DNA of 64,000 nt from positions 1 to 64,000 of the forward strand of contig LQBH01000068.1 in the NCBI GenBank assembly GCA_002030015.1, given 5' to 3'. Each line of letters opens with the position of its first letter. Position 1 is the stretch's first letter. Origin of the DNA: a delta proteobacterium MLS_D. Its GTDB lineage: Bacteria > Desulfobacterota > Syntrophia > Syntrophales > UBA2210. The position numbers were made by a program, and so were the translations under genes. The notes below the pieces were generated by a model. That model did not search any database. It was not told the DNA's origin and was given only the letters and a program-made list of their open reading frames with translations. Shown here in pieces: positions 27,846 to 41,394 of the stretch.

Positions 27846-27876
27846 TTGACTTTAATTTTGGTTTATGGTTTGTAAT
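27846..27876 (+). promoter_or_regulatory. Promoter for the aroF attenuator leader and ar operon
   Basis: TTGACT at 27846-27851 lies 17 to 19 bases before TTTGTA/TGTAAT (27869-27876). Transcription would start about 30 bases before the leader peptide ATG. Confidence 0.55.
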
Positions 27877-27914
27877 CACACGTAAATGAATGAAGACAGG
27901 TGAAGGATATCGCC

Positions 27915-28007
27915 ATGGGCGACCGTAACAGGGTAAACAGCATCTCTTTGTATTTCTGGTATTTTTATTTTACCTTACCGGTCTGCCCAGCCGCCAAGAG
28001 GATGTGA
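27915..28007 (+). CDS. aroF leader peptide with seven consecutive aromatic codons
   Basis: A 30-codon frame starting at ATG 27915 behind GAAGGA and ending at TGA 28005-28007. Codons 13-19 (27951-27971) read Tyr-Phe-Trp-Tyr-Phe-Tyr-Phe, so all three aromatic amino acids are represented, none of the seven being anything else. Downstream are two terminator hairpins and then aroF, the first enzyme of aromatic synthesis. This is the layout of classical amino acid attenuation: a ribosome stalling at the aromatic run when any charged aromatic tRNA is short would change folding of the leader. The peptide itself probably has no function. See the terminator entries for the RNA structures. Confidence 0.85.
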   Translation: MGDRNRVNSISLYFWYFYFTLPVCPAAKRM

Positions 28008-28052
28008 CACAGTTCATTTCATAAGCAAGTAAACGGCCATGGGGGAGATCGG
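27917..28052 (+). promoter_or_regulatory. aroF attenuator: candidate alternative pairings of the leader RNA
   Basis: Bases 27917-27925 (GGGCGACCG) can pair with 27979-27988 (CGGTCTGCCC, one bulged T), enclosing the aromatic codons. Bases 27978-27988 can instead pair with 28042-28052, 10 of 11 positions, which reaches into the first terminator and its loop. A ribosome stalled on the aromatic run would cover the first partner and free the second. This was done by eye, without folding energies. Confidence 0.5.
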
Positions 28053-28080
28053 GAGGATCGTCGCCATGGCCGTTTTTTTT
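28031..28080 (+). terminator. aroF attenuator terminator 1
   Basis: A perfect 12-bp stem (28031-28042 with 28064-28075) with a 21-base loop is followed by eight T (28073-28080). It lies 23 bases after the leader peptide stop and before aroF. Confidence 0.85.
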
Positions 28081-28082
28081 GG

Positions 28083-28123
28083 GGCCGTGACGCTGAGACG
28101 AGTATCTCGCACGGCCTTTTTTT
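28083..28123 (+). terminator. aroF attenuator terminator 2
   Basis: GGCCGTG (28083-28089) pairs with CACGGCC (28110-28116), with an inner GAGA/TCTC stem, followed by seven T. Its arms repeat those of terminator 1 (ACGGCC and GGCCGT), so cross-pairing between the two hairpins is possible. It ends 25 bases before the aroF start. Confidence 0.8.
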
Positions 28124-28148
28124 ATTACGGAAAAGGAGGAATTAGACC

Positions 28149-29177
28149 GTGATCATTGTCATGAAAAAAAACGCCACGCAGGAACAGATTGCACGAACCG
28201 TGGAATGGATTGAGTCCGTTGGGTACCGGCCGCATCCATCACACGGCGTTGAGCGGACTATCATCGGAGCGGTGGGAGATGCCCGTGTTCCCGAGCACAT
28301 CAAGGTTATCGAACAGCTCTCGGGTGTCGAGAAGGCCATTCCCATTCTCAAGCCTTACAAGCTGGCAAGCCGTGAATTTTGTGGCGACGACACGGTGATA
28401 CAGGTGGAAAACGTCGAAATCGGTGGCCCGCGCTTCGTCGTTATTACCGGTCCCTGCTCGATTGAAGGAGAAGAGCAGATCATGGAAAGTGCCTATATCG
28501 CAAAAAAGGGAGGGGCCGATATTCTCAGGGGAGGGGCCTTCAAGCCGAGGACGTCGCCCTATAGTTTCCAGGGTATGGGAGAAGAGGGACTGAAGCTGTT
28601 GCGCAAGGCCGGTGACAGCGTGGGTCTTCCTGTCATCACGGAAGTGCTCAACACGGAAGAGGCTGATATCGTAGCCGAGTACGCCGATATTCTTCAAATA
28701 GGCGCACGGAATGTACAGAATTTCGCGTTGTTGAAAAGGGTAGGCAAGAGCAAAAAGCCAGTGCTTCTCAAGCGGGGCATGATGACCACCATCGAAGAAC
28801 TGCTCATGTCGGCGGAATACATTCTGTCGTCGGGCAATGACAATGTCATTCTCTGCGAGCGGGGGATACGCACATTCGAGACGGCGACCAGAAACACGCT
28901 CGACATAAGCGCCGTTCCCGTGTTGAAGGAATTGACCCACCTGCCGGTCATGGTCGATCCCAGCCATGCCGCGGGTGCCTGGAAACTCGTTCTGCCCCTC
29001 TCCAGGGGGGCACTGGCCGTGGGTGCCGACGGCATCATGATAGAAATGCATCCCCGGCCGGAACAGGCGGTTTCTGACGGTATGCAGTCTTTGAAACCGG
29101 AGCGTTACTACGCGTTTATGGACGAGATACGAAGGATAGAGAGTCTTATTCGACCGCTGTCAGAGGTGGGACGATGA
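28149..29177 (+). CDS. aroF: 3-deoxy-7-phosphoheptulonate (DAHP) synthase
   Basis: A 342-residue type I-beta DAHP synthase with an N-terminal ferredoxin-like regulatory domain (about 1-70, MIIVMKKNATQEQI) as in Thermotoga, then the KDPG/DAHP barrel. It joins phosphoenolpyruvate and erythrose-4-phosphate, the entry step of the shikimate pathway. Visible barrel motifs are GPCSIEGEEQ, GGAFKPRTSPYSFQG, KRGMMTTIEE, CERGIRTFE and DPSHAAG. The N-terminal domain in known homologues binds aromatic end products, so allosteric control may add to attenuation. It starts at GTG 28149 with AGGAGG upstream, and overlaps aroB by four bases. It heads the aromatic supercluster. Confidence 0.95.
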   Translation: MIIVMKKNATQEQIARTVEWIESVGYRPHPSHGVERTIIGAVGDARVPEHIKVIEQLSGVEKAIPILKPYKLASREFCGDDTVIQVENVEIGGPRFVVITGPCSIEGEEQIMESAYIAKKGGADILRGGAFKPRTSPYSFQGMGEEGLKLLRKAGDSVGLPVITEVLNTEEADIVAEYADILQIGARNVQNFALLKRVGKSKKPVLLKRGMMTTIEELLMSAEYILSSGNDNVILCERGIRTFETATRNTLDISAVPVLKELTHLPVMVDPSHAAGAWKLVLPLSRGALAVGADGIMIEMHPRPEQAVSDGMQSLKPERYYAFMDEIRRIESLIRPLSEVGR

Positions 29178-30268
29178 AACGGATCAAGGTGGCGCTTACG
29201 AGACGAACCAACAGTTCGTACGAGATAATCATCGGGCGAGACATTATTGATCGTGCCGGCATGATTTTCGCGAAGAAGGCGTTCGCGCGGCGGATGATCG
29301 TGATTGCCGATTCGAACGTGTCTGCCCGGTATGGTGGAAGTCTTGTGAATCTTCTGAACGAGTTGTCCGTGCCCGCCGAGCTCGTTGAATTCCCCGCCGG
29401 CGAAGAGTCCAAGACCATGGAGACGGCTCTTCGAATCGCGGCCGATCTTGTGGAACGGAGAGCGGACAGGACAACGGGTCTTGTCGCGCTGGGCGGAGGC
29501 GTGACGGGGGATCTGGCGGGATTTGTCGCGTCGATTTACATGAGGTCGGTGCCGCTTGTCCAGATTCCGACGACGCTTATCGCCCAGGTGGATAGCAGTG
29601 TCGGCGGAAAAACCGGCGTCGATTTTGCGGGAGGCAAAAATTTGCTCGGTGTTTTTCACCAGCCGAAAATGGTAATTGTCGATCTTGCCTGCCTGGACAC
29701 GCTGCCCGATGCGGAATTCAAGAACGGCCTGGCTGAGGTCGTTAAATACGGCGTTATCGACGACGCAGAGCTCTTCAGTGACCTTGAACAAGAAAGCGAC
29801 GAGGTCGCGGCCCGTTCGCCCGAGGTGATGTTGAATGTTATCGAGCGCTGTCTCACCATCAAGAAAAAAATCGTCGAGATCGACGAATATGATGTGGGAC
29901 TGCGTCGCATTTTGAATTACGGTCACACGATCGGGCACGCCATCGAGGCCGCCTCGGATTACCGTATAAGTCACGGCACCGCGGTGGCAACAGGCATGGC
30001 CGCAGAAGCACGCATATCGGAGAAAAAGGGATACCTGGCGGCGGGTGACCGCGAAAGGATAGAAGGCCTGCTTGACAGACTGGGGCTGGAATGGCGATTC
30101 CCCGCAGAAATAGACGTTCGCGACGTGGTGGGCAAAGTCGGCGTGGACAAAAAACGTCAGGGTGAAACCATTCCCTTCGTGCTCGTTAAGCGAATCGGCG
30201 TTCCGTTCATCAACGGTTCCGTAGACGAGGGAATGATCGCGGAAACCATCGAGGAGATGAAAGCATGA
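29174..30268 (+). CDS. aroB: 3-dehydroquinate synthase
   Basis: A 364-residue AroB, converting DAHP to 3-dehydroquinate with NAD and a divalent metal. The NAD-binding GGGVTGDLAGFVASIYMRS (about 107-126) and the VDSSVGGKTGVDFAGGKNLLG segment are diagnostic. Metal ligands sit in NGLAEVVKYG and in NYGHTIGHAIE. Its ATG overlaps the aroF stop (ATGA) and its own stop overlaps pheA the same way, so expression is coupled. Confidence 0.96.
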   Translation: MKRIKVALTRRTNSSYEIIIGRDIIDRAGMIFAKKAFARRMIVIADSNVSARYGGSLVNLLNELSVPAELVEFPAGEESKTMETALRIAADLVERRADRTTGLVALGGGVTGDLAGFVASIYMRSVPLVQIPTTLIAQVDSSVGGKTGVDFAGGKNLLGVFHQPKMVIVDLACLDTLPDAEFKNGLAEVVKYGVIDDAELFSDLEQESDEVAARSPEVMLNVIERCLTIKKKIVEIDEYDVGLRRILNYGHTIGHAIEAASDYRISHGTAVATGMAAEARISEKKGYLAAGDRERIEGLLDRLGLEWRFPAEIDVRDVVGKVGVDKKRQGETIPFVLVKRIGVPFINGSVDEGMIAETIEEMKA

Positions 30269-31347
30269 CGGATCAATCGTTGGATGAACTGCGGTCACGC
30301 CTCCATGAAATGGACCGGCGCGTCGTCGAACTGCTCAACGAGCGGGCCCGTCTGTCGATCGCCGTGGGTGAATACAAACGTTCTGAAAGCATCGGCATCT
30401 ATGACCCCGCCCGCGAAGAACGGATCATCGCATGTATCGAGGAAATGAACGGGGGGCCTCTTCCGAACGACGCTCTGAAAGCTATTTATCGTGAAATATT
30501 CTCAGCCTCGCGGAACCTGCAGAAGCCCTTTTCCGTGGCATATCTCGGTCCCGAGGCGTCCTTTACGCACCAGGCTGCGCGGCGTCGTTTCGGAACGAAC
30601 ACCGCTATGATTTCCCAGCCGACGGTATTCGACGTCTTTGAGGCGCTTCAGCGCGGCGAGGCGTCCTGCGGTGTTGTTCCGGTGGAAAATTCACTGGAAG
30701 GATCGGTCAAGATGACGCTGGACAACCTTATATCCACGACCCTGAGCATCGTAGGTGAGATTTTCCTTCCCGTCAGTCACTGCCTGCTTTCCCGTGCGGG
30801 CCGGCTCGACGAGATACGGACCGTTTACTCTCATCCTCAGGCGCTCGCCCAGTGCCGGCGATGGCTCAGGGAAAACCTGCCGAACTGCGTGCTTCGCGAG
30901 GAGGAAAGCACTGCCTGTGCGGCCCGGCACGCGTTCGAAGAACCGTCGGCCGCCGCCGTCGCCTCACGTGAGGCCGCCGACGCGTATGGTCTTTCAGTTC
31001 TCGCGTCGGCCGTGGAGGATCACCGGTCGAACGTGACCAGGTTTCTCGTCATAAGCAACACGAAAACGGAGGCGACCGGACGAGACAAAACTTCGGTCCT
31101 GTTCGCAAGCCGCCATGAACCGGGATCCTTGCTTGGATCCTTAAAACCCTTTGCCGACCAGGGGATTAATCTCACCAGGATCGTGTCGCACCCGATGCGG
31201 GAACGTGCCTGGGAATATCTCTTCTTCGTCGATTTTATCGGGCATGCTGACGAAAAGCGTGTATCATCCTGCCTGGAAGAGCTGAAACGGGAATGTACCT
31301 GGGTGAAGGTGCTCGGTTCCTATCCTGCTGAGGAGACTTTGCCGTGA
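30265..31347 (+). CDS. pheA: Bifunctional chorismate mutase / prephenate dehydratase
   Basis: A 360-residue P-protein. The AroQ chorismate mutase domain is at 1-85 (DELRSRLHEMDRRVVELLNERARL), the prephenate dehydratase domain at about 90-265 with the catalytic NVTRF at 256-260, and a C-terminal ACT domain at 275-355. The ACT domain's Phe-binding motifs are altered: GALx becomes GSLLGSL, and ESRP reads VSHP at 307-310. It makes phenylpyruvate for Phe. Finding it inside a shikimate operon, between aroB and aroD, fits supply of the Phe branch together with chorismate. Confidence 0.94.
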   Translation: MTDQSLDELRSRLHEMDRRVVELLNERARLSIAVGEYKRSESIGIYDPAREERIIACIEEMNGGPLPNDALKAIYREIFSASRNLQKPFSVAYLGPEASFTHQAARRRFGTNTAMISQPTVFDVFEALQRGEASCGVVPVENSLEGSVKMTLDNLISTTLSIVGEIFLPVSHCLLSRAGRLDEIRTVYSHPQALAQCRRWLRENLPNCVLREEESTACAARHAFEEPSAAAVASREAADAYGLSVLASAVEDHRSNVTRFLVISNTKTEATGRDKTSVLFASRHEPGSLLGSLKPFADQGINLTRIVSHPMRERAWEYLFFVDFIGHADEKRVSSCLEELKRECTWVKVLGSYPAEETLP

Positions 31348-31363
31348 TCTGCCTGTCTCGCTC

Positions 31364-31990
31364 ATGAAGCGGTCCTTTACCGAGGCCGACCTGGTGGAGT
31401 TGCGGATCGACGGCGCGGCCGAAGTGGACCTTCCGATGCTTCTGGCGGCCAGAACGGGACCCGTTCTTGTTACAAACAGGAGCCGTTCCGAGGGAGGATT
31501 GTTCTCGGGAAGCGACGGGGAACGATGCGTTCCGCTCCTTGCGGCAGTCGACTTGGGCGCCGAGTACGTGGACGTTGAAATGAATACCCGTCGCGATTGT
31601 GTGCGTAGAATCGTTCAGCGGGCGTCGGAGCGGGGCGGACGGACGAAGGTTGTGCTGTCATATCACGATTTCGCGGGAACGCCTTCAGACAGTCGCCTTC
31701 GGGACGTGGTCGACGAAGCGTTCTCCCTGGAATGTCACATGGTGAAGATTGCGACGACGGCGGCGACGGAAGAGGACAATCTCCGCATTCTCCGGCTGGT
31801 AGCTGAAACGACGCGACAAAACAGGCTCATAACGGCATTCTGCATGGGAAAGTTGGGGAAAATAAGCCGGATTGCGGCACCGTTCTTCGGTTCCGCAATC
31901 AGCTTCGCCTGCCTCGAGAAGGGCGCTGAGACGGCACCCGGGCAGTTTACCGCGGCGGAACTGAAAACACTGTCAGGAATGATTACATGA
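31364..31990 (+). CDS. aroD: 3-dehydroquinate dehydratase, type I, with short N-terminus
   Basis: A 208-residue AroD, shorter than the usual 220-250. The catalytic and binding residues are present: the ELR of ADLVELRID (10-18), VDVEMN, the histidine in LSYHDF, the Schiff-base lysine in MVKIATT and MGKLGKISR. The first beta strand (IICVSLM-like) is missing from the ATG 31364 form. A GTG at 31344 overlapping the pheA stop encodes MICLS in another frame, so either a one-base error or a real frameshift separates the true start from the body. The neighbours all overlap by four bases, which supports that earlier start. Confidence 0.85.
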   Translation: MKRSFTEADLVELRIDGAAEVDLPMLLAARTGPVLVTNRSRSEGGLFSGSDGERCVPLLAAVDLGAEYVDVEMNTRRDCVRRIVQRASERGGRTKVVLSYHDFAGTPSDSRLRDVVDEAFSLECHMVKIATTAATEEDNLRILRLVAETTRQNRLITAFCMGKLGKISRIAAPFFGSAISFACLEKGAETAPGQFTAAELKTLSGMIT

Positions 31991-32796
31991 AAACGTACGC
32001 CCTGTTTGGAAGTCCCATCGGCCACAGCCTTTCTCCCGCCATGCACGGAGCGGCATTCGCCGCAGCGGGTGTCGACGCGTGTTTCAGGACCTTCGAGACG
32101 GACCGGGCGTTCGAGGTGCGTCACATCGTCGAGGAGGAGGACGTGGCAGGCGCCTGTGTCACGATTCCGCTCAAGGTATCTCTTCTCGAGGTTCTGGACG
32201 AAGTCGGCGACGCGGCGCGTCGCATCGGTGCGGTGAACACGATCATCAGGCGGGGGAATCGTCTGCGCGGTGAGAACACGGACTGGATCGGCATCGCCCG
32301 GTCACTCGAAAAACTGATGGGACCCATAGCGGGAAAGCGCTTCCTGGTTCTGGGGGCCGGCGGAACGGCCCGGGCGGCATTGCACGCCGTGCTCAGCGGC
32401 GATGGAAACGCCGTGATTTCGAGTCGCAGGTACGACCCTGCCCGCCTGCTGGCGGAGGAGTTTTCCTGCGAGGTCCTGCCGCACGAACAGCTTGATATGA
32501 TTCGAGCGGATTGCTGTATTAACACGACTCCTGTTGGAATGAGAAATTACGACGAGGGAATACCGATCGACAGGACCATGCTTCACCGTTTCCGGTGGGT
32601 ATTCGACGTCATATACACTCCCCGTGTGACAAGGCTGGTTCGGGAGGCGCGGGAAGAGGGATGCACCGCCGCGGGAGGTCTCGACATGTTTGTCTACCAG
32701 GGCGCGGAACAGTTCCGCCTCTGGACGGGCCTGGAGCCGCCCGTCGAAGTTATGGCGGACGCCGCCGGGAGGATGCTCGACTGTGAAGGAAATTAA
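31987..32796 (+). CDS. aroE: Shikimate dehydrogenase
   Basis: A 269-residue NADP-dependent enzyme reducing 3-dehydroshikimate to shikimate. The shikimate-binding start ALFGSPIGHSLSPAMH (about 4-19), the catalytic lysine in TIPLKVSLLE, the NTD of RGENTDWIG and the nucleotide motif LVLGAGGTARAAL (about 118-130) are all present. Its ATG overlaps the aroD stop by four bases. Confidence 0.95.
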   Translation: MKTYALFGSPIGHSLSPAMHGAAFAAAGVDACFRTFETDRAFEVRHIVEEEDVAGACVTIPLKVSLLEVLDEVGDAARRIGAVNTIIRRGNRLRGENTDWIGIARSLEKLMGPIAGKRFLVLGAGGTARAALHAVLSGDGNAVISSRRYDPARLLAEEFSCEVLPHEQLDMIRADCCINTTPVGMRNYDEGIPIDRTMLHRFRWVFDVIYTPRVTRLVREAREEGCTAAGGLDMFVYQGAEQFRLWTGLEPPVEVMADAAGRMLDCEGN

Positions 32797-34048
32797 AAAA
32801 ATACATTTGCTGGATGCCGTTGTTTCCGTGCCGGGATCGAAAAGCTATACCCAGCGGGCGCTCGTGGCGGCGGCCCTCGCCGAAGGAACGTCCCGTCTTC
32901 GCAACTGCCTCGATTCGGAGGACACGAACCTGCTGGCCCGGGCCTTGCGCATTCTGGGCGCGGATATCAGCCCCCTGGCAGGCGAGACCCTCGTTCGGGG
33001 AACAGGGGGACGGTTGCAGATGTCAGTGGAACCACTCTACCTCGGAAACAACGGTACGGGATTCAGGTTTCTTACGGCAGTAACATCCCTGTGCGATGGA
33101 CCCGCCGTTATCGACGGAGATTCACGGCTCCGCGAACGGCCGGTGGGGATTCTGGTCGACGCGGTCAACGCCGCCGGGGGAAACTGCGCCAGTCTCCGCC
33201 GCAGCGGTTACCCGCCGGTCAGGAACAGTGGCGGAGGTCTCAGGGGTGGCAGGGTCCGTTTCGGCGACAGCGACAGCAGCCAGTACATATCGGCCCTTCT
33301 CCTGACGGCGCCCTACGCATCGGAAGACCTGATCGTCGAACTGGAGGGCCGGGTGCCGTCGCTGCCTTATGTCGATATGACGCTCGAGGTTATGCGCCGT
33401 TTCGGCGTCGACGTGAAGACGCTGGAAAACCGCCGCTTTCTCGTTCCGGCTTCCGGCGGATACCGGGCTTCGGAATTCCTCGTTGAGGGAGATGCTTCCA
33501 GTGCTTCCTATTTTTTTCTCGCCGCCGCTATCTGTGGAGGACGGGTTCGGGTGAAAAATATTGATGGGAACGGCGGCCAGGGAGACCTTGGTATACTGAA
33601 TATCCTGGTTGAACTGGGGTGCTCGGTCAGGCGGGATAACGAGGGCATTGAGGTGGAAGGCGGTCCCCTGGCTGAGGGCGAGCGGCGGTACGACCTGTCA
33701 GCCATGCCCGACATGGTTCCTGGTCTCGCCGTACTCATGGCGTTCAGGCGGGGACGGACGACCATAGGCAATGTTTCCCACCTGCGGATCAAGGAAAGCG
33801 ATCGGCTGGCGGCCCTGACGACGGAATTAAACCGGGTCGGAATCGACGCGCGTGAAACGGAAGACGGTCTTGTCATCGAAGGAGGGACGCCCCGCGGAGC
33901 GGAAATACAAACTTACGGCGATCACAGGATCGCCATGAGTTTCGCCGTTGCGGGCTTGCGGACCGGGGACATGAAAGTTGTCGGAGAAGGATGCGTGGTG
34001 AAGTCTTTTCCGACTTTCTGGACAGTGCTGGAGGAACTGTCGCCATGA
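32783..34048 (+). CDS. aroA: 3-phosphoshikimate 1-carboxyvinyltransferase (EPSP synthase)
   Basis: A 421-residue EPSP synthase. The diagnostic motifs are VPGSKSYTQRALVAAAL (about 14-30), the YLGNNGTGFRFLTA segment (usually LGNAGTAMR), GDSRLRERPVG and RIKESDRLAAL near the C-terminus. I chose GTG 32783 since GGGAGGA lies upstream and the product then starts at the normal family position; the frame is open further back inside aroE. It overlaps aroE by 14 bases and aroK by four. Whether it is glyphosate-tolerant cannot be judged, but the GNNGTG variant of the usual GNAGTA motif sits in the inhibitor pocket. Confidence 0.94.
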   Translation: MKEIKKIHLLDAVVSVPGSKSYTQRALVAAALAEGTSRLRNCLDSEDTNLLARALRILGADISPLAGETLVRGTGGRLQMSVEPLYLGNNGTGFRFLTAVTSLCDGPAVIDGDSRLRERPVGILVDAVNAAGGNCASLRRSGYPPVRNSGGGLRGGRVRFGDSDSSQYISALLLTAPYASEDLIVELEGRVPSLPYVDMTLEVMRRFGVDVKTLENRRFLVPASGGYRASEFLVEGDASSASYFFLAAAICGGRVRVKNIDGNGGQGDLGILNILVELGCSVRRDNEGIEVEGGPLAEGERRYDLSAMPDMVPGLAVLMAFRRGRTTIGNVSHLRIKESDRLAALTTELNRVGIDARETEDGLVIEGGTPRGAEIQTYGDHRIAMSFAVAGLRTGDMKVVGEGCVVKSFPTFWTVLEELSP

Positions 34049-34557
34049 AGGGATTCGTTCTGATCGGATATCGCTGTACGGGGAAGACGACAGTGGGGAG
34101 AATACTCGCCCGACGGCGCGACATGCCGTTCGCCGACACGGACGAGATTATCGAAGAACGGACGGGGAAGACCGTCACACAACTTGTGGGGGAAGGGGGA
34201 TGGCCCTTTTTCAGGGAAAAGGAGTGTGAGGCGCTCGAGGCCGTCGCGTCGCAGGGACCGCTTGTGCTTGCCACCGGAGGCGGCATCGTGGAGTCGGAAC
34301 GAAACCGGAAAAGTCTGAAGCTGATCGGGTTCGTGATTTGGCTCACGGCGTCACTGGACGAAATCGAGCGCCGGATGTTCGCAGATCCCGGAACATCGCG
34401 CGGAAGGCCCCCGCTTTCGGGAAAAGACCGCCGAGCGGAGATAGAAGAGACCCTGGTCCGCCGGGAACAGTTCTACGCTGCGACGGCGGACCTGGTCGTC
34501 GACACGACGGATCGATCCATCGTGTCAATCGTCGAAGAAATTCTTTATGAAACGTAA
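34045..34557 (+). CDS. aroK: Shikimate kinase
   Basis: A 170-residue kinase phosphorylating shikimate. The P-loop is GYRCTGKTTVG (about 7-17), the shikimate-binding FADTDEIIEERTG follows, and LATGGGIV is also diagnostic. The ATG at 34045 overlaps the aroA stop (ATGA); the longer frame beginning at 33991 lies within aroA and is not used. Confidence 0.94.
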   Translation: MKGFVLIGYRCTGKTTVGRILARRRDMPFADTDEIIEERTGKTVTQLVGEGGWPFFREKECEALEAVASQGPLVLATGGGIVESERNRKSLKLIGFVIWLTASLDEIERRMFADPGTSRGRPPLSGKDRRAEIEETLVRREQFYAATADLVVDTTDRSIVSIVEEILYET

Positions 34558-34574
34558 ACAAGGGGGAGGGGATC

Positions 34575-35627
34575 ATGTCTGGAAACAGCATCGGGAAAAT
34601 CTTCGTCCTGACAACCTGGGGTGAGTCGCACGGAGCGGCTATCGGCGCCGTCGTGGATGGATGCCCGCCCGGCCTCGATCTTGAAGAGCGGGACATTCAA
34701 CGTGAGCTTGACCGCCGGCGTCCGGGACGGGGAGATGTCGCATCGCCGCGACTGGAAGAAGATCGCGTGGAGATCCTTTCGGGAGTGTTCGAGGGACGGA
34801 CAACGGGAACGCCCGTTTCTCTCGTTATCAGGAATCGGGATCGACGAAGCGGCGATTATTCAGCCCTGAAGGATATTTACCGTCCCGGACATGGCGATTA
34901 CACCTATGACCGAAAATACGGCCTGCGTGACCATCGGGGCGGAGGACGCGCTTCGGGACGGGAAACGGCGGCGCGTGTCGCCGGCGGTGCCGTGGCGAAA
35001 AAACTGCTGGGGCGTGAAAACATATCCATTCTCGCGTACACCGTTGAATTGGGAGGAGTGGGTATAAAGGATTTTGACGAAGAGGCGATAAGGGCCACAT
35101 CAATGTGCTGCCCCGACCGTGAGGCGGCGGAAAAGATGGAGACGGTCATTGGAGATGCCCGGGAAAAAGGCGACACGATCGGAGGCGTCGTGGAGATCGT
35201 TGTGAAAGGATGCCCGGCAGGCCTGGGAGAGCCCGTCTTCGATAAGATTGACGGCGATATCGCCGGGGCCCTCATGAGTATCGGGACCGTGAAGGGCGTG
35301 GAAATCGGCGCCGGGTTCCATGCCGCCCGCATGACAGGTGCCGTCTGCAACGATTCGCTTGGAGCGGAAGGATTTCGGACGAACAACGCCGGGGGCATTC
35401 TTGCGGGAATAACCACCGGTGCCGATATAGTTGTGCGCGTGGCCTGCAAGCCGATTTCGTCAATACCGACACCCCAGGAAACCCTGGACAGAAGGGGGAA
35501 CCCGACGACGATTAGAATAGGTGGAAGGCATGATCTATCCGTCATTCCCCGTATCATTCCAGTATGTGAGGCAATGACGGCGCTGGTGCTTGCAGATCAC
35601 ATGCTAAGGCAGAAAACCATCGCCTGA
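34575..35627 (+). CDS. aroC: Chorismate synthase
   Basis: A 350-residue AroC, the last step to chorismate using reduced FMN. The family signatures TTWGESHG (about 13-20), RRPGRG and RASGRETAARVAGGAVAKKLL are clear, as is the closing GRHDLSVIPRIIPVCEAM. It is preceded by AAGGGGGAGGGG and 17 bases after aroK. It is the last gene of the ar half; the trp promoter begins about 70 bases beyond its stop. Confidence 0.96.
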   Translation: MSGNSIGKIFVLTTWGESHGAAIGAVVDGCPPGLDLEERDIQRELDRRRPGRGDVASPRLEEDRVEILSGVFEGRTTGTPVSLVIRNRDRRSGDYSALKDIYRPGHGDYTYDRKYGLRDHRGGGRASGRETAARVAGGAVAKKLLGRENISILAYTVELGGVGIKDFDEEAIRATSMCCPDREAAEKMETVIGDAREKGDTIGGVVEIVVKGCPAGLGEPVFDKIDGDIAGALMSIGTVKGVEIGAGFHAARMTGAVCNDSLGAEGFRTNNAGGILAGITTGADIVVRVACKPISSIPTPQETLDRRGNPTTIRIGGRHDLSVIPRIIPVCEAMTALVLADHMLRQKTIA

Positions 35628-35728: not shown

Positions 35729-35765
35729 CGCGGATCATGTAGAAAAACAGGAAGGGAAGGACGTG

Positions 35766-35876
35766 ATGATGACAACGTTTGCCGCGTACGGCTGGTGGTG
35801 GCGAAAATCCATGACCGCGGCTTTTTTATTTCGGACAGGAAAGGCCGTGAAGAAATCGCGGCCTTTTTTCGATTGA
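35766..35876 (+). CDS. trpL: trp leader peptide with three consecutive Trp codons
   Basis: ATG 35766 (or 35769) follows GGAAGGGAAGG. The peptide reads MMTTFAAYGWWWRKS, with Trp codons at 35793-35801, close in pattern to the E. coli trpL end GWWRTS. Unlike that peptide the frame does not stop after RKS; it continues through the terminator to TGA 35874-35876 (36 residues). A +1-frame TGA lies at 35812-35814, exactly where a classical stop would be. Scarce Trp would stall the ribosome on the WWW codons. Confidence 0.88.
   Translation: MMTTFAAYGWWWRKSMTAAFLFRTGKAVKKSRPFFD
35781..35869 (+). promoter_or_regulatory. trp attenuator: protector, antiterminator and terminator pairings
   Basis: Three mutually exclusive pairings can be drawn by eye. 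Region 1:2 is 35781-35786 (GCCGCG) with 35816-35821, enclosing the Trp codons. Region 2:3 is 35816-35825 with 35840-35849, ten pairs including two G-U, the antiterminator. Region 3:4 is 35841-35849 with 35857-35865, a nine-pair stem followed by six T, the terminator. A ribosome on the Trp codons covers region 1 and favours 2:3, so transcription continues into trpE. Confidence 0.75.
35841..35869 (+). terminator. trp attenuator terminator hairpin
   Basis: AAGGCCG (35841-35847) pairs with CGGCCTT (35859-35865), extended by two inner pairs, followed by a T run to 35869. It lies 32 bases before trpE. Confidence 0.85.
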
Positions 35877-35900: not shown

Positions 35901-37430
35901 ATGCAGTATGAACCGTCTTTTGAAACATTCAAAAAAATCGCCGCTCTAGGAACACTGATTCCTGTGAGCCGGGAGATTCTAGCTGACACGGAAACACCTG
36001 TTTCGACAGTAATGAAACTGAGCGCCTGCCCGGAAGTGTTTCTGCTTGAAAGCGTCGAAGGGGGTGAAAAATGGGGTCGCTATTCCTTCCTGGGATGCGA
36101 TCCGCGTGCCTTGTACGCCGTTCGGGGTGAGTCGGTCGAGATACGGGAAAACGGCATCACCCGGTCCTTTGAACACGGCGGCGACCCGTTGAAGCCGCTT
36201 CAGGATTTGTTGAAGAAGTATCGTCTCGTGACGCCCACCGGCGGTCTTCCCCGTTTTTTCGGCGGCGCCGTGGGGTATCTCGGCTATGACATGGTCCGTT
36301 TTTTCGAGAAACTGCCCCGCGAGACGGAGGACGACCTTCACATGGCGGACGCGCTTTTTCTTGTTGCCGACGATGTGATTATTTTCGATAACCTGCGGCA
36401 TACCATCACCGTGTCGGCCTGTGCCTGCGTGGACGACGGGGCGGACCTGCGCGACCTCTACGAACAATGCCGCGAACGGATCGACGGGACAATCGCCCTG
36501 ATCAACGCACCCCCGAAGGGGCGCCGCGGTAAATCCAGAAATGCCGACGACGACGGCTTTATACAAGGCATGTCGAAGGATGCCTTTATTTCAATGGTGG
36601 ACAAGGCCGTGGAGTATATCAGGGCCGGCGACGCGATCCAGGTGGTGCTTTCCCAGCGGTTTGAAAAAAAGAACGACATTGACACGGTGAGCCTTTACCG
36701 GGCGCTCCGTTTCATTAACCCTTCGCCGTATCTTTTTTATTTCAAGTCGAAGGAGGGGACGCTCATAGGTTCATCGCCCGAAGTCATGGTGCGCCTCGAA
36801 TCGGGTATCGCCGAGCTTCGTCCGATTGCCGGGACCCGTAAACGGGGAGCTTCGGAACAGGAGGACCGTCGTCTCGCCGACGAACTGTTGAATGATCCGA
36901 AGGAACGGGCCGAGCACGTGATGCTCGTCGACCTGGGACGAAACGACCTGGGCCGCATAGCGAGAACGGGCAGTGTTCAGGTGACGCAGCTCATGGCGGT
37001 GGAGCGCTATTCACACGTCATGCATCTCGTTTCAACGATCACGGCACAGCTGGAAGAAGAGAAAAACTGGCTCGACTTACTGGCGGCGACTTTTCCCGCG
37101 GGTACCCTTGCCGGTGCGCCGAAAATCCGCGCCATGGAAATCATCGAGGAACTGGAGCGGGTCCGCCGTGGTCCCTACGGTGGCGCCGTGGGATATGTTT
37201 CCTTTGAAGGCTCCATGGACCTGTGCATAACCATACGGACAATCCTGGTGAAGGACGAAAAACTGTACATACAGACAGGGGCCGGCATCGTCGCGGATTC
37301 CGATTCTTTTCTTGAATATGAAGAAACCCTGAACAAGGCCGCCGCCATGATGGAAGCGGTGCGGCTGGCCGACAGGGAATTCAGCCCGGCGGGGGAGAGG
37401 GTGAAACGGCATGATACTCCTGATCGATAA
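35901..37430 (+). CDS. trpE: Anthranilate synthase component I
   Basis: A 509-residue TrpE, which with TrpG makes anthranilate from chorismate. The Trp feedback motif LLES is at 48-51, and the chorismate-binding core contains IAGTRKRGAS, LIGSSPEVMVR, LMAVERYSHVMHLVS and GAPKIRAMEIIEELE. The retained LLES motif suggests Trp inhibits the enzyme in addition to attenuation. The start is ATG 35901 after GGGGG. It overlaps trpG by 20 bases. Confidence 0.96.
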   Translation: MQYEPSFETFKKIAALGTLIPVSREILADTETPVSTVMKLSACPEVFLLESVEGGEKWGRYSFLGCDPRALYAVRGESVEIRENGITRSFEHGGDPLKPLQDLLKKYRLVTPTGGLPRFFGGAVGYLGYDMVRFFEKLPRETEDDLHMADALFLVADDVIIFDNLRHTITVSACACVDDGADLRDLYEQCRERIDGTIALINAPPKGRRGKSRNADDDGFIQGMSKDAFISMVDKAVEYIRAGDAIQVVLSQRFEKKNDIDTVSLYRALRFINPSPYLFYFKSKEGTLIGSSPEVMVRLESGIAELRPIAGTRKRGASEQEDRRLADELLNDPKERAEHVMLVDLGRNDLGRIARTGSVQVTQLMAVERYSHVMHLVSTITAQLEEEKNWLDLLAATFPAGTLAGAPKIRAMEIIEELERVRRGPYGGAVGYVSFEGSMDLCITIRTILVKDEKLYIQTGAGIVADSDSFLEYEETLNKAAAMMEAVRLADREFSPAGERVKRHDTPDR

Positions 37431-38022
37431 CTACGACTCGTTTACTTACAACCTCGTACAGTACCTGAGACAGCTCGGCGAAGAAGTGACGGTGTGCCGT
37501 AACGACCGGGTGTCGGTCGATGAAATGGAGGATATGCGCCCGGACGCCCTGGTGCTCTCACCCGGTCCGCGAACACCGCGGGAAGCGGGTGTGACCGTGG
37601 AGGCGGTCCGCCGTTTTTACCGGCACATACCCATCATGGGCGTCTGCCTGGGGCACCAGGCCATCGGCTGCGCCTTCGGCGGAAAGGTCGTGCAGGCCGG
37701 GATGATCATGCACGGCAAAACGTCCACGGTACAAAGCGACGGCAGGACTATTTTTTCAGGCATGCCGGGAACCTTCACGGCGGGACGGTACCATTCTCTT
37801 ATTCTTGAGCGGTCGTCATTGCCTCCCTGCCTGGAAATCACCGCCGAAACCGACGCGGGTGAGGTGATGGGGCTCCGGCACCGGGAGTTTCCCACCGAGG
37901 GCGTCCAGTTTCATCCCGAGTCGATTCTTACGCCTCTCGGCAAGAAAATAATAAAAAATTTTATTTCGCTGTTTCTGCGGAAAGGCGAAAACGCGAAGCA
38001 AGCACAGGAGGAATGTCGATGA
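37411..38022 (+). CDS. trpG: Anthranilate synthase component II (glutamine amidotransferase)
   Basis: A 203-residue class I glutamine amidotransferase. The nucleophile cysteine is in MGVCLGHQAIG (about 77), with the His/Glu pair in VQFHPESIL near the end. LSPGPRTPREAG is the usual oxyanion region. It starts 20 bases before the trpE stop and overlaps trpD by four. The same subunit could also serve 4-amino-4-deoxychorismate synthase, as in Bacillus. Confidence 0.95.
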   Translation: MILLIDNYDSFTYNLVQYLRQLGEEVTVCRNDRVSVDEMEDMRPDALVLSPGPRTPREAGVTVEAVRRFYRHIPIMGVCLGHQAIGCAFGGKVVQAGMIMHGKTSTVQSDGRTIFSGMPGTFTAGRYHSLILERSSLPPCLEITAETDAGEVMGLRHREFPTEGVQFHPESILTPLGKKIIKNFISLFLRKGENAKQAQEECR

Positions 38023-39029
38023 TAAGAAACGCGATTGCGAAAATGGTCGAGGGACGCGACCTGCAGGAGGCCGAGATGACGGCGGTCATGGGTAAAATCA
38101 TGGATGGCGAGGGAACCGACGCCCAGATAGGCGCCTTCATGACGGCACTCAGGATGAAGGGTGAGACGATCGACGAGGTGACCGGGGCGGCCCGCGCCAT
38201 GCGCCGGCGCGCGGTCCGGGTGGATGCCCGGTCGTTACTGATCGTCGATACCTGCGGGACCGGGGGCGACGGGCGCGGAACCTTCAATATTTCCACGACG
38301 ACCGCCTTCGTTGTCGCCGCGGCCGGGATCGTGGTGGCGAAACACGGCAACCGCGCCGTTTCGAGCGGGTGCGGCAGCGCCGACCTGCTCGAGGCACTGG
38401 GCGTTAACATAGATGCGGGTATCGAAACGGTAGAGGCGTGCCTGCAGGAGATCGGCATCGGCTTTCTTTTCGCGCCCCGTCTTCACCCGGCCATGAAATA
38501 CGCCGCCGGACCGCGTCGGGAGCTGGGAATCAGGTCGATTTTCAACATGCTGGGGCCGCTCACCAACCCGGCGGGCGCGACGGTGCAGCTCCTGGGCGTG
38601 TACGATTCGCGTCTCACTGAAGTATTCGCTGCCGTGCTGGAGCGGCTTGGATCGAAGCGGGCCTTCGTGGTCTGTGGTTCCGATGGCATTGACGAGGCGA
38701 CCGTTACCGGAGAAACACGTGTTTCCGAACTCGATGACGGTCTTATTGTAACGTATAATATCGATCCATCGCCCTATTTCGGTGGTTATCACGACATCTC
38801 GTCTCTTGCGGGAGGCGACGCGGAAGGGAACGCACAAATCACGAAAGCGGTGCTTTCGGGCGAAGAAGGACCTCACCGGGACGTGGTGCTGCTCAACGCG
38901 GGCCTGGCCATTACGGCGGCGTCCATTTCCCCCGATCTCTCCGCTGGAATCGAAACGGCACGGCAATGCATCGACGACGGGTCGGCAATGAAGGTACTGC
39001 AGTCCCTCATCGAGATGACAAACGCGTGA
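38019..39029 (+). CDS. trpD: Anthranilate phosphoribosyltransferase
   Basis: A 336-residue TrpD joining anthranilate to phosphoribosyl pyrophosphate. The PRPP loop DTCGTGGDGRGTFNIST (about 78-94), KHGNRAVSSGCGSADLLEALG and GPLTNPAG are diagnostic. I chose ATG 38019 because AGGAGG is seven bases upstream and it gives a four-base ATGA overlap with trpG; ATG 38013 is only one base from that AGGAGG. Confidence 0.95.
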   Translation: MIRNAIAKMVEGRDLQEAEMTAVMGKIMDGEGTDAQIGAFMTALRMKGETIDEVTGAARAMRRRAVRVDARSLLIVDTCGTGGDGRGTFNISTTTAFVVAAAGIVVAKHGNRAVSSGCGSADLLEALGVNIDAGIETVEACLQEIGIGFLFAPRLHPAMKYAAGPRRELGIRSIFNMLGPLTNPAGATVQLLGVYDSRLTEVFAAVLERLGSKRAFVVCGSDGIDEATVTGETRVSELDDGLIVTYNIDPSPYFGGYHDISSLAGGDAEGNAQITKAVLSGEEGPHRDVVLLNAGLAITAASISPDLSAGIETARQCIDDGSAMKVLQSLIEMTNA

Positions 39030-39037
39030 GGTGAACC

Positions 39038-39832
39038 ATGATTGTCGACCGAATCGTGGAATCAGTGAAAGAGCGACTGGAAAACCGCAAGCGTGTCATT
39101 CCGTTGCCGCTGCTCAGGGCGGCCGCGGAAGAACGGGACGATATCCGCGATTTCAAGGGTTCGCTCGAAACCGGCGACTGTGCCGTCATCGCCGAGATCA
39201 AGCGCGCTTCGCCGTCAGCGGGGCGGATCATCGATGATTTCGATCCCGCCGGCCGTGCGGCGGCTTGCGAGCGGGGAGGGGCGGCGGCACTGTCGGTGCT
39301 TACCGAGGAGGATTATTTCGAGGGGAGTCTCGCCCATCTGGTCGAGACGCGGGAGGCCGTGTCGCTACCGGTACTTCGCAAGGATTTTATCATCGACGCG
39401 TACCAGGTGTATGAAACGCGGGCTGCCGGCGGCGACGCGCTCCTGCTGCTTGCCGGCCTCCTCGGGCGCAGTGAGCTCGCAGATTTCCTGGTTCTCGCCG
39501 GGTCGCTCGGAATGGAAGCGCTTGTTGAAATACGGAATGAAAGGGAACTGGAGGAGGCGATCATCGTTGGGGCGGGCGTCGTCGGCATCAACAACCGGGA
39601 CCTGAAAACCTTCCGCGTCGATATCGCGACAAGCGAATACCTCGCGCCGCTGGTTCCTCCCGCGGTTTGCGTCGTCGCGGAGAGCGGCATCCGGGACAGG
39701 GCTGACATGGAAAGGCTGCGGGCGACCGGAATCAAGGCGTTTCTGATAGGCGAGGCACTGTCCCGGTCGAAAGATCCGGGCGCGGAGCTGCAACGCCTGA
39801 TGGCCGGAAAGGACGGGGAAGGATGCAGATAA
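39038..39832 (+). CDS. trpC: Indole-3-glycerol phosphate synthase
   Basis: A 264-residue TrpC barrel enzyme. The catalytic lysine of VIAEIKRASPSAG (about 49-61), VLTEEDYFEGS, VLRKDFIIDAYQVYE, the phosphate-binding GINNRDLKTF and ESGI are all present. The start has GAGGTG upstream, eight bases after trpD. It overlaps trpF by ten bases. Confidence 0.95.
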   Translation: MIVDRIVESVKERLENRKRVIPLPLLRAAAEERDDIRDFKGSLETGDCAVIAEIKRASPSAGRIIDDFDPAGRAAACERGGAAALSVLTEEDYFEGSLAHLVETREAVSLPVLRKDFIIDAYQVYETRAAGGDALLLLAGLLGRSELADFLVLAGSLGMEALVEIRNERELEEAIIVGAGVVGINNRDLKTFRVDIATSEYLAPLVPPAVCVVAESGIRDRADMERLRATGIKAFLIGEALSRSKDPGAELQRLMAGKDGEGCR

Positions 39833-40491
39833 AAATCTGCGGCATAACGCGGCCTGAGGACGCGCTGGCGGCCTCGGACATGGGAGCGGACGCCCTGGGA
39901 TTTATTTTTTTTCGTAAAAGTCCGCGGTGCATATCCGTGGACAAGGCGGTAAGCATTATCGGGCGACTGCCGTCGAATGTGGTCAGGGTCGGAGTTTTCG
40001 TGAATGAAGACCCGGCTGTCGTCACGTACGTCATCGAGAACTGCCGCCTCGACATGGTGCAGCTTCACGGAGACGAGTCGCCGGAATACGCCCGTTCGCT
40101 TTCAGCATCCATCGTCATCAAGGCCGTGGACATTCGTAACGACGCGGCACTCGAAGTCGCCCTGGACTATCCGGCCGCAGCCCTTCTCGTGGACGCGAGG
40201 GCCGGCGATTCTTACGGCGGAACGGGCAGGAGATCGAACTGGACTGCGGCGCAAACGATCGGGACGCGAAGGCCGGTCATTCTCGCGGGGGGGCTCGACC
40301 CGGGCAATATCGGCGAAGCGCTGACGAAGGTCCGCCCCACGGCTGTTGATTTCAACAGCGGGGTCGAATCGGCGCCCGGAATCAAAGACCACGAAAAGAT
40401 GGCACTGGCAATAGAAAGATCACGGAAAGGCGGCGCCGGACTTCGCGACGGCAGCCCGTTCAGGAAACGGAGAGTCGGCGAGGCCTGGTGA
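39823..40491 (+). CDS. trpF: Phosphoribosylanthranilate isomerase
   Basis: A 222-residue TrpF. It begins with the family's KICGITRPEDALAA (3-16, catalytic Cys5). GFIFFRKSPRC, VGVFVNE, VQLHGDES and the phosphate loop LAGGLDPGNI follow, with the catalytic aspartate in VDFNSGVESAPGIKD. The C-terminal 15 residues are a basic extension. trpB and trpA, which normally come next, do not follow; the next gene is tyrA. Confidence 0.94.
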   Translation: MQIKICGITRPEDALAASDMGADALGFIFFRKSPRCISVDKAVSIIGRLPSNVVRVGVFVNEDPAVVTYVIENCRLDMVQLHGDESPEYARSLSASIVIKAVDIRNDAALEVALDYPAAALLVDARAGDSYGGTGRRSNWTAAQTIGTRRPVILAGGLDPGNIGEALTKVRPTAVDFNSGVESAPGIKDHEKMALAIERSRKGGAGLRDGSPFRKRRVGEAW

Positions 40492-40596
40492 ATTATTCGG
40501 GCGCCTCCGCCTATGCATGTCCGTCTGCTCTGTGGTATAGAAAACAGTCGGTTCGCGAAGGGGCCGGGTAAAAAATTGTTTTTGGGGGTCGGCGGC

Positions 40597-41394
40597 GTGA
40601 AAGAAGGGAGTTTTGAAATAGGCATTATCGGCGGTGCCGGGGGAATGGGGAGCTGGTGCTCCGATATACTGCGCGGCCAGGGCTACCGGGTTCACGCGGC
40701 TGGTCGAAACAGCGGCATGGCCGTCGAGGAAATGGCCCGCCGCTGTTCCGTGGTGATCGTAAGTGTTCCCATCGAGGCGACGCTGTCCGTCATCGACCGG
40801 GTTGGGCCGCTCCTTTCCGGCGATTCGCTTCTTATGGACCTTACCTCGGTCAAGGAAGCGCCCGTTCGGGCCATGCTTTCATCGACCGGGGCGGAAGTAA
40901 TGGGTTGTCATCCGCTCTTCGGTCCCCGGCCGGACAGCGTGGACGATCTCAGCATTGTCCTGTGTCCCGCTCGTGTTGACCGGTGGGCGTCATGGCCGTC
41001 CGGCATTTTCGCCGCCGCCGGGATAAAGATTATAGAAACGACACCGGAGGAACATGACCGCGTGATGGCGGTCGTGCAGGGCCTGAACCACCTGGATACG
41101 ATTCTTCTGGCTCTCACGCTGGGGCATTGCGGCATTGAACGTTCAGACCTGGAACGCTTTGCCACGCCCTTGTTCCGATCACGACTCGCCGCCCTAGACA
41201 GAGTCATGGCAGGCAATCACCGTATGTATGCCGAAATAATCTGTTCCAATCCCCGGGTTGCCTCGCTGATAGAGGAATTCGAAAAAATACTCGGTGAATT
41301 AAGGGGATACATTGAGAAGGGGGATGGAGCGGGATTCGCGGCACGAACGGCGACAGCACGGCCTGCAAAAGTAATACCACCTGTTGAAGATTAA
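40597..41394 (+). CDS. tyrA: Prephenate dehydrogenase family protein
   Basis: A 265-residue protein if it starts at GTG 40597 (VKEGSFEIGIIGGAGGMG). An ATG at 40513 would add 28 non-conserved residues. The NAD loop is IGGAGGMG. The prephenate-site histidine is in GCHPLFGPRPDSV, and EEHDRVMAVVQGLNHL is the conserved dimer helix region. It oxidises prephenate to hydroxyphenylpyruvate for Tyr and completes the Tyr branch within the cluster. No chorismate mutase domain is attached, so prephenate must come from PheA. GGGGGTC lies upstream as a possible ribosome binding site. Confidence 0.85.
   Translation: MKEGSFEIGIIGGAGGMGSWCSDILRGQGYRVHAAGRNSGMAVEEMARRCSVVIVSVPIEATLSVIDRVGPLLSGDSLLMDLTSVKEAPVRAMLSSTGAEVMGCHPLFGPRPDSVDDLSIVLCPARVDRWASWPSGIFAAAGIKIIETTPEEHDRVMAVVQGLNHLDTILLALTLGHCGIERSDLERFATPLFRSRLAALDRVMAGNHRMYAEIICSNPRVASLIEEFEKILGELRGYIEKGDGAGFAARTATARPAKVIPPVED

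Follow-up and report, generated by a model that had tools for sequence, protein, structure and literature searches.

What governs the entry step of aromatic amino acid biosynthesis when the gene for DAHP synthase is preceded by a short, aromatic-rich leader? Attenuation through translation of a leader peptide is a classical mode of control, and multivalent versions of it precede ilvGMEDA and thrABC in Escherichia coli, where the leaders carry codons for several amino acids sharing a pathway. The locus described here raises the question of whether one leader can read tyrosine, phenylalanine, and tryptophan together. It lies in a 64,000 nt stretch of DNA from delta proteobacterium MLS_D (GCA_002030015.1, LQBH01000068.1, positions 1-64,000, forward strand), which was analyzed as a whole and is referred to below as the window. 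As judged from its sequence, the aroF leader is very likely a classical ribosome-mediated transcription attenuator with sensor codons covering all three aromatic amino acids, and the aro pathway is probably switched on when any of Tyr, Phe, and Trp runs short.

Organization of the aroF leader

The leader and its surroundings comprise the following features, all on the forward (+) strand of the window:

27846-27880 (+): likely promoter, read from the sequence, with a -35 element TTGACT at 27846-27851 and a -10 candidate TGTAAT at 27871
27903-27907 (+): AAGGA, the ribosome binding site of the leader, 7 nt before its ATG
27915-28007 (+): leader peptide ORF MGDRNRVNSISLYFWYFYFTLPVCPAAKRM, 30 codons and a TGA stop
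27915-27928 (+): segment 1, which holds the leader start codon and is the partner of segment 2 (minimum free energy (MFE) fold; 1:2 covariation)
27951-27971 (+): sensor codons TAT TTC TGG TAT TTT TAT TTT, encoding Y F W Y F Y F (codons 13-19)
27977-27993 (+): segment 2, core GGTCTGCCC at 27980 (alignment; 2:3 pairing)
28033-28053 (+): segment 3, the 5' arm of terminator 1 and alternative partner for segment 2 (MFE fold; 2:3 conservation)
28033-28080 (+): terminator 1, 3:4 hairpin and U-tract (MFE fold; covariation)
28083-28123 (+): terminator 2, 5:6 hairpin and U-tract (MFE fold; covariation; in 59 of 60 order sequences)
28133-28139 (+): aroF ribosome binding site AAGGAGG, from sequence
28149-29177 (+): aroF, DAHP synthase, GTG start, with ferredoxin-like and DAHP_synth_1 domains
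29174-35627 (+): operon 3' of aroF, with aroB, chorismate mutase/prephenate dehydratase, aroD, aroE, aroA, aroK, and aroC
35763-35876 (+): second leader ORF, Trp-only (...AAYGWWWRKS...), before trpE, with a terminator-like hairpin
35901-41394 (+): trpE, trpG, trpD, trpC, trpF, and prephenate dehydrogenase

The TTGAC element of the promoter is also present in three genus relatives. In the downstream operon, pheA was assigned via NCBIfam and the remaining genes were read from ORFs. Terminator 1 consists of a hairpin at 28033-28074 and a U-tract at 28073-28080, and terminator 2 of a hairpin at 28083-28116 and a U-tract at 28117-28123. Both form in the MFE fold of the leader (-79.3 kcal/mol, z -3.4), together with 1:2, in which the start-codon region pairs with GGTCTGCCC. 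A simple terminator scan detected neither terminator, their loops and bulges probably lying beyond the limits of the scan. The earlier note, made from the letters of the window, had described a leader frame of 30 codons with a ribosome binding site, seven consecutive aromatic codons, and two terminator hairpins followed by aroF; each of these elements is found at the positions above, and the domains of the aroF product are those of a DAHP synthase.

The adjacent trp genes have a separate WWW leader within the same aro-trp supercluster. Among trpE leaders of the family, at least two Trp codons are present in 11 of 11 readable cases, in a search that itself required two.

Conservation of the aromatic run

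Relatives of aroF were located in 149 genomes of the host's order, and 90 upstream regions were read. The earlier note had suggested looking for the same leader in related genomes, and had named a lack of conservation of the aromatic run as a ground for refuting its reading. The run proves to be conserved: an aromatic-rich leader precedes aroF in 88 of these 90 regions, and outside the order, a run of this kind lies before 31 of the 60 aroF genes that were sampled from the phylum, both counts ignoring kinship, with many rows being relatives. In one of the two leader-less cases (G143, locus L125), the run GYWFYTYF is present and a standard start was not found. Phe and Tyr codons occur in all 88 order leaders and Trp codons in 82, and in 82 of the 88 all three residues fall within a 10-codon core. 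An upstream ORF with at least 6 aromatic codons out of 9 is present in 85 of 89 order aroF regions versus 3 of 445 dinucleotide shuffles; when the leader must in addition contain each of the three residues, the numbers are 81 of 89 and 2 of 445.

The run is conserved at the amino acid level, with TTT and TTC, and likewise TAT and TAC, used in mixture and with varying residue order. TGG lies 21 nt upstream of segment 2 in 44 of 88 order leaders. Trp codons tend to be placed ahead of Tyr codons (medians of 21 and 15 nt before segment 2, respectively), and a response graded by amino acid is therefore predicted.

Competing RNA helices

An alignment of 60 order sequences resolves three competing strands. 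Segment 1 (ATGGGCAGA or ATGGACAGA) coincides with the start of the leader; segment 2, TCGGTCTGCCCAT, comes immediately 3' of the aromatic run; and segment 3, ATGGGTAGACCGA, lies within the 5' arm of terminator 1. For helices 1:2, 3:4, and 5:6 taken together, two-sided changes occur in 21 of 31 pairs, compared with 11.6 in shuffles and above all 500 of them, and 90.6% of cells are paired versus 29-49% when the strands are slid. The antiterminator 2:3 is paired in 88.7% of cells versus 28-46% when slid, and shows two-sided changes in 6 of 13 pairs, an excess over shuffles that is modest, as would be expected if segment 3 has to satisfy 3:4 as well. At least 75% of the pairs can form for 2:3 in 56 of the 60 rows, for 3:4 in 60, for 5:6 in 59, and for 1:2 in 45.

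The antiterminator uses the 5' arm of terminator 1, and the two structures are mutually exclusive. The locus combines several defining features of an attenuator: a short leader frame that can be translated, with its ribosome binding site, a run of codons for the end products, an intrinsic terminator before the structural gene, and an alternative helix that competes with this terminator. The attenuator in front of aroF proposed in the earlier note is thereby strengthened, helices 1:2, 2:3, and 3:4 being both present and conserved.

Ribosome position and the proposed switch

The spacing between codons and helices is tightly kept. In 73 of 81 leaders, the last aromatic codon lies 6 or 9 nt from segment 2, and in 73 of 81, the leader stop lies 27 or 30 nt from the start of segment 2. 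We folded the RNA, cut just before segment 4, with the bases under a ribosome masked (its footprint assumed to span -18 to +11 relative to the A site). On average, the expected number of 2:3 pairs is 10.5 with the ribosome at the first aromatic codon, 5.4 at the last, and 3.0 at the stop codon. When a queued ribosome over the start codon is added, 2:3 prevails over 1:2 in 81 of 81 leaders. The masked folds thus favor the ribosome's position as what selects between the two structures, but in the same folding model, ribosome-free truncated RNA also prefers 2:3 over 1:2 in 69 of 81 (8.3 pairs), and thermodynamics therefore does not predict termination without translation.

The ORF, its aromatic run, and the alternative helices with their conservation and spacing are observed; that the ribosome stalls, that each amino acid elicits a response, what 1:2 does over the start codon, and how terminator 2 is passed are inferred in the following switch. 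When charged tRNA-Tyr, tRNA-Phe, and tRNA-Trp are plentiful, the leader ribosome would reach the stop codon and cover part of segment 2, so that terminator 1 (3:4) would form and transcription would end before aroF. Shortage of any one of the three charged tRNAs would stall the ribosome in YFWYFYF, just 5' of segment 2, which would then pair with segment 3 as the antiterminator and permit readthrough into the aro operon. Terminator 2 would either require separate antitermination or be leaky.

The 3' ends of the leaders show a further regularity. In 39 of 88 leaders (for example, L085), an AGGAGG lies no more than 20 nt from the leader stop, and Arg codons are AGG in 102 of 118 cases at leader 3' ends versus 10 of 86 elsewhere in the leaders; because of this bias, the nucleotides themselves look selected. 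Possibly, the AGGAGG induces a pause of the Shine-Dalgarno type, with the ribosome kept over segment 2.

Related scaffolds before other genes

An unbiased motif scan of GTDB genomes matched 37 stretches, 32 of which are an aromatic leader followed by aroF. A covariance model built on the antiterminator region has matches in 134 of 149 order genomes and in 126 of 297 sampled phylum genomes; second-tier matches are moderate (E 1e-4 to 1e-8, roughly calibrated). For each match, the most aromatic ORF was picked and the model was trained on aromatic runs, so the aromatic content of the classes described below is biased, while the identity of the aromatic residue is unbiased, apart from the training set being mixed. 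Downstream genes were classified by the first ORF and by family matches of one example per class, and here, too, many of the rows are relatives.

Beyond aroF, the matches fall before four kinds of neighbor. Phe-only runs (FFSFFSFF) precede a LivJ-like substrate-binding protein, with an ABC ATPase next in most cases. The window's own genome has such a locus (L235, contig C69:73616-73732, minus strand), in which a run FFSFYFF precedes a LivJ-like protein and an ABC ATPase, and the same arrangement was read in 12 other genomes; by its leader, the transporter is likely an importer of Phe (aromatic). Tyr-only runs (NYYGYYYY; L236, L241) precede a LivK-like substrate-binding protein and a permease. 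In these two leaders, the segment 2 core is in another reading frame, giving RSA instead of VCP, so what is conserved is the RNA and not the peptide. Trp-only runs (GWWWW) precede a Phenol_MetA_deg-like protein in L238 and L248. In genomes with the alternative entry to the pathway, mixed runs precede 2-amino-3,7-dideoxy-D-threo-hept-6-ulosonate (ADTH) synthase and 3-dehydroquinate (DHQ) synthase II.

Codon content differs between these classes. Among 38 aroF leaders outside the order, 36 contain Phe, 28 Trp, and 38 Tyr codons; for 17 ADTH leaders, the numbers are 17, 10, and 17, and for 13 Phe-type transporter leaders, 13, 0, and 3. Such matching of codon sets to downstream genes on related scaffolds supports the proposed sensing logic, and all the scaffolds are likely of common descent. 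We consider it reasonably probable that they form one Desulfobacterota-wide attenuator family and an RNA-controlled aromatic regulon, in which an GGUCUGCC antiterminator and terminator scaffold carries interchangeable codon cassettes: F, Y, and W before the shikimate-entry enzyme (DAHP synthase, or else ADTH synthase together with DHQ synthase II), and F, Y, or W singly before transporters or other genes, so that the codons would predict substrate and function.

A few matches have other neighbors. A further Trp-only run on this scaffold stands before a gene in a Desulfomonile MAG (L116); across L238, L248, and L116, the Trp-only runs read WWWW or WWW. In three genomes (L100, L103, L260), a mixed aromatic leader stands before an uncharacterized GNAT-domain protein of ~500-527 residues, which apparently belongs to the aromatic regulon, and in L269, the leader SYFYFFYFYF stands before an aminotransferase-like gene, which may encode an aromatic aminotransferase.

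Alternative explanations

The attenuator could be real and yet respond to one or two amino acids only, most likely Tyr and Phe, with the single TGG along for the ride. The composition of the core points in this direction, with a mean of about one Trp versus 2.6 Phe and 3.75 Tyr, as do 17 aro-entry leaders, out of 55 examined beyond the aroF set of the order, whose core lacks Trp. There is also a precedent in Corynebacterium glutamicum, where the aroR leader, with its Phe-Tyr-Phe codons, acts upon Phe limitation alone despite the Tyr codon (PMC11802643), and codon content is therefore no proof of three-way sensing. Against this stand the retention of Trp in 82 of 88 order cores and the recurrent placement of TGG at 21 nt, in a portion of the run at which stalling frees segment 2. 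Moreover, the Trp-only and Phe-only scaffolds indicate that Trp can be dropped, or used alone, according to the gene. We judge the narrower response to be unlikely and favor three-way sensing. A further proposal, compatible with three-way sensing, concerns the second terminator: formation of 2:3 would free segment 4, which would pair with segment 5 and open terminator 2 in the manner of dominoes. The 4:5 helix can form in 59 of 60 rows, with 96% of cells able to pair; the two terminators occur in tandem in 59 of the 60, and aroF expression requires terminator 2 to be passed. However, 4:5 covariation is not above that of shuffles, and the complementarity follows from a near-palindrome, GCCATGGC, common to both hairpins, and we entertain this proposal only tentatively, as somewhat doubtful.

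Quite different would be a leader ORF that is incidental, with control exerted by direct binding of a protein, a small molecule, or a tRNA, as in a riboswitch or T-box. We found no evidence in support of direct binding, and the window contains no Rfam covariance-model match above the gathering score (Trp_leader, T-box, and others). The run is conserved as amino acids through mixed synonymous codons and a changing residue order, the codon sets vary with the downstream gene, and the distances from run to segment 2 to stop are fixed, all of which makes direct binding highly improbable. Finally, Phe and Tyr codons are rich in T and A, as would suit a chance or T-rich low-complexity run, but this origin is to all intents ruled out by the excess over shuffles (85 of 89 versus 3 of 445), the retention of TGG, and the covariation.

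Discussion

In much of a phylum, an RNA switch that reads all three end products together appears to be the point at which aromatic synthesis is controlled. With codon sets that track the downstream gene, the leaders can also be used to annotate genes of unknown specificity, the LivJ-like importer being an example. Since codon cassettes have been exchanged naturally on a single scaffold, the sensing rule is open to direct test.

In the open-access literature, we found no leader combining Phe, Tyr, and Trp codons, nothing on aromatic leaders from Deltaproteobacteria, Geobacter, or Desulfovibrio, and no scaffold on which codon sets can be exchanged; subscription surveys, of which those of Lopatovskaya (2010; cited in PMC4833913) and Vitreschak (2004; cited in PMC1262725) are probably the most relevant, may contain an earlier prediction. 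The remark in the earlier note that it knew of no described shikimate-operon leader mixing all three aromatic amino acids in one run stands as far as open-access papers go, and is tempered by the existence of leaders with mixed aromatic codons, such as aroR.

The multivalent ilvGMEDA and thrABC leaders resemble the present one in serving several amino acids, theirs being branched-chain or Thr and Ile rather than aromatic. The E. coli trpL, pheL, and pheST leaders, which act by ribosome-mediated attenuation (PMC11802643), share with it a leader peptide, alternative hairpins, and a rho-independent terminator. They each respond to one amino acid, however, and control terminal branches or a tRNA synthetase instead of the common entry step; in the present leader, the start codon is part of segment 1, and the sensor codons are placed between this segment and segment 2. 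For the entry step itself, E. coli has a quite different solution, with repression of its DAHP synthase isozymes by TyrR and TrpR (PMC11802643) in place of an RNA switch. In Acholeplasma, an upstream ORF with at least one Phe codon has been predicted before aroF (motif uORFC-13-1; PMC8632094). Like the present leader, it combines an upstream ORF and a terminator before aroF; it belongs to another phylum, and a mixed run was not reported. The C. glutamicum aroR leader also precedes aroF (PMC4046766, PMC11802643) and resembles the leader described here in its mix of aromatic codons and in having an attenuator in front of a gene for DAHP synthase. It differs in having no Trp codon and in coming from another phylum, and the likeness, which we draw from its description, is one of function only.
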